From Halobacteriales archaeon QS_4_62_28 (GTDB taxonomy: Archaea > Halobacteriota > Halobacteria > Halobacteriales > Haloarculaceae), in the NCBI GenBank assembly GCA_003021685.1, contig PXRO01000005.1:1-64000 (forward strand): DNA of 64,000 nt, given 5' to 3'. Numbering within the stretch: position 1 is the stretch's first letter; every line of letters begins with the position of its first letter. A program made the position numbers and the translations under genes. This document shows positions 9,985 to 63,527 of this stretch, one piece after another. The notes under the pieces are model-generated. The model was not told where the DNA came from. It ran no database searches and saw nothing but the letters and a program-made list of their open reading frames with translations.

Positions 9985-11823
9985 ATGAGTTCGGTGCCCG
10001 AACGTTCGGAGATCAACGAGCAGCACAAGTGGGACCTGGAATCGCTGTATGCGACCGACGAGGAGTGGGAGGCAGCCTTCAGCCGAGCCGAGGAACTCGT
10101 CGAGGATCTGGCGGCCTACGAGGGCCGTGCCACGGACGACGCCGGGACACTCCTGGAAACGCTAGAGAGCTACGAGGAGTTGATGCGGACGGTCGCCAAC
10201 GTCGCATCATACGCCCGGATGCGCAAGGACGAGGACACGACGCGGGACCAGTATCAGGCACTGACCGCACGGTCACAGTCGCTGTCGGCCGACGCCTCCA
10301 GCGCCTCGAGTTTCCTCGAACCGGCACTGCAGGCCCTCGCGTGGGACGACATCGAGGCGATGATCGAAGCGGAACCGGACCTGGCCGACTACGAGCACTA
10401 CTTCGACGACGTATTGCGAATGAAAGAACACACCCGCTCGCCGGAGGTCGAGAACCTGCTGGCGGAGTTGAGCGAGGTGACCGGCGCATCCGGCGAGGTG
10501 TACAACATGCTGGCCAATGCCGACATGGAGTTCCCGAGCGTCGAGACGCCCGACGGTGACCCTCAGCCGATCACACTCAACAACTTCACGACCCTTCAAA
10601 AGAAGCCGGATCGGGACTTCCGCCGGCGTGTTTACGAGACGTTCTACGACGAGTGGGAGACCGTCCGCAACGCCGTCGGTGCGGCCTACAAGAACAGCGT
10701 CAAGACCGACGTGAAGATGGCACGGGCACGCAACTACGACACCGCGCGCGAGGCGGCACTGGATGGCCCAAACATTCCCGTTTCGGTGTACGATACGCTC
10801 GTCGACACCGTGCGTGACAATCTCGACGCCCTGCATCGCCACGCCGACCTGAAACGCGAGGCCATCGGCGTCCGAGAGTCCGACGACTCTCGGGGCAGTC
10901 AGACTCCGTCTGACTCATCTGGAGAGTTGCAGATGTGGGACCTCTACGTCCCACTCGTCCAGGAGGAATCGCCCGAAATCGAGTACGAGCAAGCCTGCGA
11001 GTACGTCGTCGACGCCGTTGCCCCACTGGGCGAAAACTACCAGTCACGCGTCGACGAGGGCCTGGAATCACGCTGGGTGGATGTCTACGAGACCGCAAAC
11101 AAGCAATCGGGCGCGTACTCCGGTGGGACCTACGACTCCCAGCCGTTCATCCTGATGAACTACCAGGACGACGTGGAGTCGATGTACACGCTGGCCCACG
11201 AACTGGGCCACTCGCTGCACTCCGAGTACACCAGCGAGTCTCAGCCCTACGTTTACTCTGGCTACGAAATCTTCGTCGCGGAAGTGGCCTCGACGGTCAA
11301 CGAGACGCTGTTGACCCACTACCTGCTCGATACGGTCGAGGACGACCGACTGCGCCGTCACGTCCTCAACGAGTACCTCGAACGCTTCCGGTCGACGCTG
11401 TTCCGCCAGACGATGTTCGCCGAGTTCGAACACCGCGCCCACGAGATGAGCGAGGCCGGTGAGCCACTGACCCCCGACCGCCTCGACGACCTGTATCACG
11501 GCCTCAAGAGCGACTACTACGAACCCGCCGCCGTCGACGACCGCATCGCCCGAGAGTGGATGCGCATCCCCCACTTCTACCGGTCGTTCTACGTCTACCA
11601 GTACGCGACTGGCATCTCCGCTGCGGTTGCACTCGTCGACGGCATCTTGGAGGAGGGCGAACCCGCCGCGAACCGCTACGTCGAGTTCCTCCGGAGCGGT
11701 TCCCGGGAGTACCCGCTGGAACTGCTCCAGGGAGCGGGCGTCGACATGTCCACGCCGGCACCCGTCGAGTCGGCCATCGACACCTACAGCGAGTATCTCG
11801 ACGAGTTCGATCAGTTGACCTGA
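9985..11823 (+). CDS. pepF: Oligoendopeptidase F (M3B metallopeptidase)
   Basis: The 612-aa cytosolic zinc peptidase cleaves short peptides. It has an N-terminal helical PepF domain and the M3 active site TLAHELGHSLHSEY (HExxH) near residue 405, followed by the EVASTVNE glutamate ligand. The gene carries what looks like an extra Ser/Asp-rich segment at about residues 295-312 (coding bases about 10871-10935). At the DNA level this segment is two perfect hairpins and one weaker one, in frame (see findings). Otherwise the length is normal for the family. Confidence 0.93.
   Translation: MSSVPERSEINEQHKWDLESLYATDEEWEAAFSRAEELVEDLAAYEGRATDDAGTLLETLESYEELMRTVANVASYARMRKDEDTTRDQYQALTARSQSLSADASSASSFLEPALQALAWDDIEAMIEAEPDLADYEHYFDDVLRMKEHTRSPEVENLLAELSEVTGASGEVYNMLANADMEFPSVETPDGDPQPITLNNFTTLQKKPDRDFRRRVYETFYDEWETVRNAVGAAYKNSVKTDVKMARARNYDTAREAALDGPNIPVSVYDTLVDTVRDNLDALHRHADLKREAIGVRESDDSRGSQTPSDSSGELQMWDLYVPLVQEESPEIEYEQACEYVVDAVAPLGENYQSRVDEGLESRWVDVYETANKQSGAYSGGTYDSQPFILMNYQDDVESMYTLAHELGHSLHSEYTSESQPYVYSGYEIFVAEVASTVNETLLTHYLLDTVEDDRLRRHVLNEYLERFRSTLFRQTMFAEFEHRAHEMSEAGEPLTPDRLDDLYHGLKSDYYEPAAVDDRIAREWMRIPHFYRSFYVYQYATGISAAVALVDGILEEGEPAANRYVEFLRSGSREYPLELLQGAGVDMSTPAPVESAIDTYSEYLDEFDQLT
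10872..10935. repeat. In-frame hairpin cluster inside pepF
   Basis: Two perfect stem-loops stand close together inside the coding sequence. CCGAGAGTC/GACTCTCGG lies at 10872-10893 with loop CGAC. AGTCAGAC/GTCTGACT lies at 10897-10915 with loop TCC. A weaker CATCT/AGATG follows at 10916-10935. They encode the SDDSRGSQTPSDSSGE-type segment between KREAIGV and QMWDLYVPL, which are probably contiguous or nearly so in homologues. The centre GACTCCGTC also occurs in a hairpin of the 59-kb element. I infer insertion of a palindromic element that kept the frame. Confidence 0.6.
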
Positions 11824-58950: not shown

Positions 58951-59281
58951 CAAAGCACCGAAAGCCCTCGCCTTACGCGGCGGCAGTTGCCGCCGCGGAG
59001 AAGGCGGTCGGTGAAGCCGACCGCCCGTTGCGGGAACCCGGACCCCGCAAGCCACGAGGGACTCCGTCCCTCGGCCCGTGCGAACGGCTCCGCCGCGAGC
59101 AGACACCTGTCGGAGCGTGGTTCGAAAGACCTCCGGTCTTTCGTCATCACGAAAGGCGCGAATGCGCCTTTCGGTCGACAGCGTGGGTCCCGGGATGCTC
59201 GTGAGCGGAGCGAACGAGCGCTCAAAGACGAGCGAAGCGAGTCTTTGGTGCCGCAACTGTACGAGGGCTTTCGGTGCTTTG
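58951..59281. repeat. 331-nt hairpin-array element with perfect 20-bp inverted ends
   Basis: CAAAGCACCGAAAGCCCTCG at 58951-58970 is exactly complementary to 59262-59281. Between the ends at least seven perfect stems follow one another: 58977-58996 (8 bp, loop AGTT), 59003-59025 (9 bp), 59028-59050 (7 bp), 59055-59073 (8 bp, loop TCC), 59123-59143 (9 bp, loop TCC), 59150-59173 (10 bp, loop GAAT) and 59223-59247 (7 bp). Short frames here are shadows. It may act as a structured RNA or a DNA element. No protein is supported. Confidence 0.8.
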
Positions 59282-60380: not shown

Positions 60381-60650
60381 ACACCGAAAGCCCTCGGTGC
60401 TCTCGCGACCGCTGAGCGACATATCCGCAATCGCTTCGCTCTTTCGGATAGTGGTCGCTCAGACGGTCACGTACACGCGAGAGCACCTCGCCCTTTCATC
60501 CACCAGGGAACGATTGGTTGGCCGATTAGCCGAATCCTGGCGGATGAAAGGGCGAGCGGGGTTCCGGGAACCCTGACGACGCAAGCACGCGAACGGGGTG
60601 AGCGCGCGCAGCGAGTCACGGGACCGGAACCCCGCGAGGGCTTTCGGTGT
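60381..60650. repeat. 270-nt four-way-junction-like structured element
   Basis: ACACCGAAAGCCCTCG at 60381-60396 pairs perfectly with 60635-60650. Three arms fill the interior with no unpaired base between them. Arm 1, 60397-60486, pairs GTGCTCTCGCG with CGCGAGAGCAC, plus CTGAGCGAC/GTCGCTCAG and TATCCG/CGGATA inside. Arm 2, 60487-60556, pairs CTCGCCCTTTCATCC with GGATGAAAGGGCGAG, plus CCAGG/CCTGG inside. Arm 3, 60557-60634, pairs CGGGGTTCCG with CGGAACCCCG. Bases around GGGAACCC-GAC-CGCAAGC resemble the 59-kb element. It lies between mptG and ilvD. Confidence 0.8.
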
Positions 60651-63428: not shown

Positions 63429-63436
63429 CTCTTCTC

Positions 63437-63517
63437 ATACGGGTTATTGTAGCGATTTACCGGTGATCGTCGCCACGGGGTAGACGATCACCGGTAAGCA
63501 ACTACAATAAACCGTAT
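63437..63517. repeat. 81-bp near-perfect palindrome between convergent genes
   Basis: Positions 63437-63471 and 63483-63517 are inverted copies matching at about 30 of 35 positions, with an 11-nt centre. The ends read ATACGGGTTATTGTAG and, on the other strand, ATACGGTTTATTGTAG. The element sits between two convergent stops, so it may work as a bidirectional terminator, but the length and end similarity resemble MITE or IS-end elements of haloarchaea. Confidence 0.75.
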
Positions 63518-63527
63518 CAGTCGTTTT

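Follow-up and report, generated by a model that had tools for sequence, protein, structure and literature searches.

The pepF gene in the 64,000-nt stretch of haloarchaeal DNA analysed here (the window, which lies in a genome of 2.64 Mb) carries two perfect hairpins back to back within its coding sequence, as the initial annotation had recorded. This raises the question of where such a structure comes from and how an enzyme gene came to hold it. Related in-frame hairpin inserts were found scattered through many conserved genes, so that a tiny mobile element seemingly adds loops to proteins. The features of the locus are collected in Table 1.

Table 1. Features of the pepF locus, with positions in the window.
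Feature	Position	Strand	Description and basis
pepF, oligoendopeptidase F, 612 aa	9985..11823	+	TIGR00181 610.9 bits; Peptidase_M3 243 bits
In-frame insertion, 48 nt, codons 296-311, VRESDDSRGSQTPSDS	10870..10917	+	Protein alignments; 16-residue gap in PDB 2qr4; AlphaFold
Hit of covariance model R1 (derived from 19 further copies)	10866..10916	+	33.6 bits, E 1.8e-7
Hairpin 1 (hp1), sequence-variable partner hairpin, CCGAGAGTC-cgac-GACTCTCGG	10872..10893	+	Perfect, 9 bp, 4-nt loop; arms co-vary between copies, including against the G095 pepF copy
Linker GGCA, most frequent form among coding copies	10894..10897	+	Comparison of copies
Hairpin 2 (hp2), conserved stem GTCAGAC-NNN-GTCTGAC	10897..10915 (core 10898-10914)	+	Perfect, 8 bp, 3-nt loop TCC; read SQTPSD
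GAGAGT	10874..10879, again 48 nt downstream at 10922-10927	+	Sequence; possible target-copy trace, not significant in pepF

The 48-nt insertion in pepF

Protein alignment gave a length of exactly 16 residues for the segment which, rather than belonging to most PepF homologues, was missing from each of the 55 further archaeal loci in the alignment (a few of these loci represent one genome counted twice) and from 19 of the 20 other PepF proteins in a second comparison, the exception being that of G095, a member of a different genus. None of the six congeners of the host carries the insert, and at the same spot the congener G005 has four extra, different residues. The solved PepF chains 2qr4 and 3ce2 are also without it. 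The earlier proposal of a lineage-specific insertion in frame, built of hairpins and about 16 residues long, was borne out. In the AlphaFold model of PepF (mean pLDDT 88.7), values below 50 were confined to residues 299-312, between two helices, so that the insert is the sole unstructured loop of the protein, in agreement with the suggestion that the hairpin segment has been retained as a protein loop.

A second site in PepF, following the conserved NADMEFP motif, also bears other inserts in some relatives, with EAR(S/R)(A/T)SD encoded over GAGGCGCGAAGCGCCTC. These constitute another in-frame palindrome, seen in several genera (L116/G017, L117/G039, L118/G038, L131/G141 and L132/G068).

The 75-nt hairpin stretch folded better than all of 200 shuffled sequences as DNA (z -3.8) and better than 198 of 200 as RNA. 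Among 809,545 bases of the genome that were scanned, the pepF double hairpin was the strongest in coding sequence with a score of 17, the next coding ones scoring 16 and 15, and its hp2 stem was the sole copy in 1.21 Mb taken from the host genome (G000) and G002. A third, weak hairpin (10916-10935), which had been counted as a member of the cluster, was rejected as part of the shared element because half of it is host sequence, with CAGATG lying in the conserved flank.

Hairpins were also observed between genes. Two intergenic hairpin-rich elements at 58956-59280 and 60383-60645 of the window are bounded by CCGAAAGCCCTCG..CGAGGGCTTTCGG, and the former, the 59-kb element, holds hp-TCATCA-hp units with the linker TCGTGATGACGA, for which 23 exact matches were detected in the genome, 18 of them read as being inside the element. 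A different intergenic two-hairpin unit, GGCGTT-hp-C(G/A)C(A/C)CA-type linker-hp(TCAGAA..TTCTGA)-GGACG, was seen at L142:14424-14472, L149:7157-7205 and L160:28-76, with conserved linkers and compensated stems. An inverted repeat of 38 nt, 84% complementary and with an 11-nt spacer, is located at 63434-63520 of the window.

Distribution and anatomy of the two-hairpin family

When the insert was compared by blastn with 142 genomes of the same taxonomic family (family genomes), short matches alone were returned, several of which share GTCAGAC-NNN-GTCTGAC and a nearby second hairpin. This hp2 pattern was searched for with the reversed pattern, itself a perfect hairpin, as control. It was present in 51 of the 142 family genomes and in 132 of 391 genomes of the haloarchaeal class, occurring in unrelated genes across 51 of the 86 genera of the class. 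A phylum-wide search detected it in 32 of 392 genomes, all 32 being among the 81 haloarchaea, and in none of the 311 non-haloarchaeal genomes of the phylum, with the reversed control giving no match in the family, class and phylum searches. Copy number is low, ranging from 0 to 5 exact hp2 copies per family genome. Seven weak matches, none of them usable, were obtained by blastn against plasmids, and none of 20 loci matched Rfam at the gathering score. A viral origin was rejected, the longer pattern AGTCAGACNNNGTCTGACT being found in 13 IMG/VR stretches; in 12 of them the flanks are alike and do not resemble the element, and the thirteenth is AT-rich. It was also observed that the IMG/VR contigs L242-L246 and L248-L253 have a conserved AGTCAGACC(C/G)GGTCTGACT palindrome in common, in one phage context and with unrelated flanks.

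The anatomy of the unit was examined in 70 copies from family genomes and 20 from other families, 89 of which are distinct. Within 8 nt of hp2, 69 of the 89 copies have a partner hairpin with a stem of 8 bp or more, compared with 36 of 3247 control points taken from the same DNA (1.1%); with a stem of at least 6 bp the figures were 72 of 89 and 148 of 3247. The commonest layout is hp1 with a 3-nt loop followed by a 4-nt linker. Alignment of 19 copies showed that all eight base pairs of hp1 change on both sides somewhere, and the double-changed cells numbered 48 as against 13 in shuffles. Within this alignment hp2 is invariant because it served as the search key, and in loci found by the covariance model it varies with compensation (GCCAGAC..GTCTGGC and GTCGGAC..GTCCGAC). 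The stems of hp1 and hp2 are unrelated, the unit being two separate hairpins without terminal inverted repeats of the MITE type. The covariance model (R1), built from the 19 aligned copies with pepF excluded, ranked pepF first in the 809,545 bases of its own genome. At E 0.01 it gave at least one match in 56 of 57 family genomes and 322 matches when summed, although this sum counts some sites on both strands and may be inflated by GC-rich genomes, the E-values of R1 being rough.

Besides pepF, the hosts named using NCBIfam are trpA (L275), rps4e (L238), nrdJ, ileS, birA, pheA, sdhA, folD and mre11. A further 14 kinds of domain were recognised using Pfam, namely beta-lactamase-fold, lumazine-binding, CbiX, ABC transporter, thioredoxin, epimerase, DUF1028, S9 peptidase, FAD and NAD oxidoreductases, beta-CASP, 2-oxoacid dehydrogenase E2, tRNA synthetase and histidine kinases. 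Of the 70 copies from family genomes, 16 are flanked left and right by sequence of coding character, while at least 40 of the 70 lie outside clear host coding sequence, many in tnpB and part of them without a clear host ORF. Among fetched copies, a coding location was assigned to 13 of 20 from other families and to 21 of 30 and 10 of 15 in further sets.

The QTxSD frame was used by all 16 codon-scored coding copies from family genomes and by all 13 from other families, and outside tnpB every clearly coding copy is in this one frame, read as (S/R)QTxSD or a compensated form. The order hp1 to hp2 runs along the coding strand in 27 of the 28 coding copies with a partner hairpin; L397 lies on the opposite strand, and L390, a coding copy from another family, has no partner hairpin. 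Since one of the other two hp2 frames holds a stop and the remaining one is basic (VRxxLT), the acidic frame is presumably the benign one for a halophile. Insertions were again visible against empty relatives in birA, where 16 residues (48 nt) are inserted in one of eight members of the genus and in none of its seven congeners, and the majority of the pheA homologues shown are without an insert. Occupied sites in pheA, trpA, folD and sdhA recur at like positions across genera or families. Tandem repeats of the unit with a 45-nt period, as if amplified, were seen in histidine kinases and a tRNA synthetase (L422, L429, L435 and L458).

Target copies and the origin of the insert

Copies of the host target are clear in birA. 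The empty sites of the seven congeners read KWPNDVLV and the occupied gene has NDVLVP-TGTGASQTESD-DVLVP. Here host sequence forms the left arm of hp1 and an inverted copy of that arm forms the right one, and host sequence resumes 3' of hp2. Target copies like those of birA occur in trpA (DIVAEG..DVAEG) and in histidine kinases (AVEHG..AVEHG). In pepF itself no direct copy is visible, the score being low with only the GAGAGT repeat at 48 nt. An ungapped test for target copies, run on 25 units, missed significance: the observed value was reached in 32 of 200 swaps. A gapped test with 30 copies, ten same-gene copies having been dropped before counting, was significant with 0 of 5000. With 23 copies, after removal of tandem-repeat loci, same-gene copies and five loci without a standard hp1/hp2 pair, the gapped test was again significant, at 3 of 5000 when other windows from the same genes served as the control and at 16 of 5000 when flanks were swapped.

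The insert of G095 lies at the same pepF codon as that of the host and is 77% identical to it over 48 nt, and the hp1 stems of the two differ by one compensated pair (CCGAGAGTC versus CCGCGAGTC, with the partner arms matching). The flanks in G095 have an identity of 0.88-0.94 to those of the seven other members of its genus, all of them free of the insert, and of 0.74 to those of the host. Transfer of pepF between the two organisms is therefore not supported, because the flanks follow the respective genus. The recurrence at one codon could be an old insertion with loss.

Insertion relative to close relatives, dispersal, paired arms, a single frame, an orientation bias and exclusion from the other classes of the phylum were all demonstrated directly, and the pepF insert is probably one copy of a dispersed and very short two-hairpin family of haloarchaea which resembles the Rickettsia palindromic elements (RPE), its mobility and target copying being suspected from the comparisons above. 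Each copy would consist of hp1 (a stem of 8-10 bp that differs per gene), a linker of 3-5 nt and hp2 (GTCAGAC-NNN-GTCTGAC or a compensated variant), and would add about 45-51 nt, read as the hydrophilic loop (G/A)(S/R)QTxSD; as the addition is in multiples of three, the host gene stays open. It is suspected that the unit moves as an element and that insertion copies the host target twice, once in inverted form, giving rise to hp1, and once directly behind hp2, perhaps via snap-back synthesis at a staggered cut. Imperfect arms may be corrected by fold-back template switching, which would keep the palindromes perfect despite drift, and copies would persist at exposed positions on the protein surface where the loop does no harm. 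The fuller picture of an ultrashort mobile element with a conserved part of only one 17-nt hairpin and a linker, inserting in one frame and one orientation, drawing its partner hairpin from a backward copy of the target, hitting identical codons again in distant lineages and equipping core enzymes across the class with disordered loops, is put forward as a tentative possibility. We know of no transposition chemistry from which one would expect an insert to be bordered by its target in inverted as well as direct copy.

The main rival, judged rather unlikely, is that the unit derives from IS200/IS605, as a hairpin pair from the termini or the omega-RNA region of IS1341-type (tnpB) transposons that spread in the manner of the 52-bp PATEs. 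Eight ORFs with the unit inside or beside them were tested and all proved to be TnpB (OrfB_IS605 / Cas12f1-like_TNB), the tnpB-associated copies make up a large share of the 70 from family genomes, and PATEs, according to the available part of their description, have near-terminal palindromes in common with IS605-type elements, with the 52-bp terminal-only forms thought to be mobile (PMC3119063). However, the unit sits inside the tnpB ORF as it would in one more host gene, either at the DRDANAV site (the RuvC-end motif), antisense and in another frame, or, using the QTxSD frame, within the C-terminal tail; hp1 is different in every gene; and direct target copies are enriched in the gapped tests, whereas PATEs lack target duplication. 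The tnpB genes may be the donor or simply a frequent host. That old insertions were inherited vertically and often lost, or moved with the host gene, with no mobile element involved, is improbable. The same site is indeed occupied in distant lineages in pepF (two genera), pheA (three genera and another family), trpA, folD, sdhA and ileS, but the pepF insert is absent from six of six and seven of seven congeners, the G095 flanks are those of its own genus and birA is occupied in one of eight; moreover, hp2 is common to many different genes, so that spread between genes is required in any case.

A local event, in which fold-back template switching during replication made both pepF hairpins without any donor, is highly improbable. 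The perfect arms, the in-frame position and the single copy of each stem in this genome are what it would lead one to expect, and palindromes made and perfected by template switching are described in the portion of the literature available (PMC6649704), but the recurrence of hp2 in unrelated genes of 51 of the 86 class genera calls for a common source; local template switching may explain hp1 alone. Scarcely credible is the source favoured in the initial annotation, the intergenic hairpin family of the 59-kb element. Both are made of back-to-back short-loop hairpins and have GACTCCGTC in common, but linker, ends and stems are all unshared, which refutes direct descent. The window holds five occurrences of the supposed link GACTCCGTC, where 2.8 would be expected; five are reached by 14 of 100 shuffles, and a motif within chance gives no evidence for kinship. 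When the insert was used as a blastn query against its own genome it found itself alone, with no second copy, and units of the 59-kb type in the scanned stretches were all intergenic, with none in coding sequence. They form a separate family with its own linker, and the real relatives of the pepF insert are the two-hairpin units with GTCAGAC-NNN-GTCTGAC.

Relation to known palindromic elements

The preferred reading of the insert as a copy of a dispersed two-hairpin family invites comparison with known systems. RPEs are dispersed palindromic DNA lying in frame in unrelated metabolic genes, with a recurrent peptide and copies that are also extragenic, and the host protein apparently still works, as stated in the accessible part of one account (PMC10969869). 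The haloarchaeal unit is like them in being in frame in unrelated genes, in its recurrent peptide and in having copies outside genes too, and the likeness to RPE drawn in the initial annotation holds for an in-frame hairpin insertion with relatives in many unrelated genes. In contrast to RPEs of about 150 bp in Rickettsia, it adds 45-51 nt (48 nt in pepF and birA) and is composed of one conserved and one gene-specific hairpin. Its arms also stay perfect, whereas the identity of RPE repeats decays over time in the portion of the source available (PMC6649704). The unit would best be said to work like an RPE and not to be one, a functional parallel, because its length differs and the search for the hp2 pattern covered the phylum of the host.

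The PATE or terminal-only IS605-type elements of Haloquadratum, palindromic, transposase-free, as short as 52 bp and tied to tnpB in the part of the report available (PMC3119063), resemble the unit in being haloarchaeal, palindrome-bearing and associated with tnpB. They differ in that the same part of the report describes no in-frame insertions in genes, and may also differ in target duplication, which PATEs lack (PMC3119063). In the mitochondria of Nematomorpha, perfect inverted repeats lie in protein-coding genes and template switching has been proposed for their upkeep; as far as the available text goes, these palindromes differ from the unit in having arms of up to 142 bp, in being mitochondrial and in having no sequence common between genes (PMC6649704). 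REP/REPIN and MITE are short, palindromic, non-autonomous and multi-locus, like the haloarchaeal unit. REPs are described as extragenic and as bearing a GTAG or CGTC tag in the accessible part of one source (PMC3733652), whereas the unit is frequently in coding sequence; MITEs have terminal inverted repeats, which the unit lacks.

The coding-palindrome family of haloarchaea is apparently undescribed; among the papers searched, chiefly those accessible without subscription, none dealt with palindromic elements inserted in frame in haloarchaeal genes. In-frame coding palindromes have so far been viewed as a peculiarity of Rickettsia. A family found throughout an archaeal class, in trpA, pheA, folD, ileS, birA, mre11 and a ribosomal protein, is a second and independent case, and one in organisms that are genetically tractable (Haloferax and Haloarcula). 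With empty sites available in close relatives, the absorption of loops by proteins, the repeated targeting of the same codons and the upkeep of perfect palindromes become testable.
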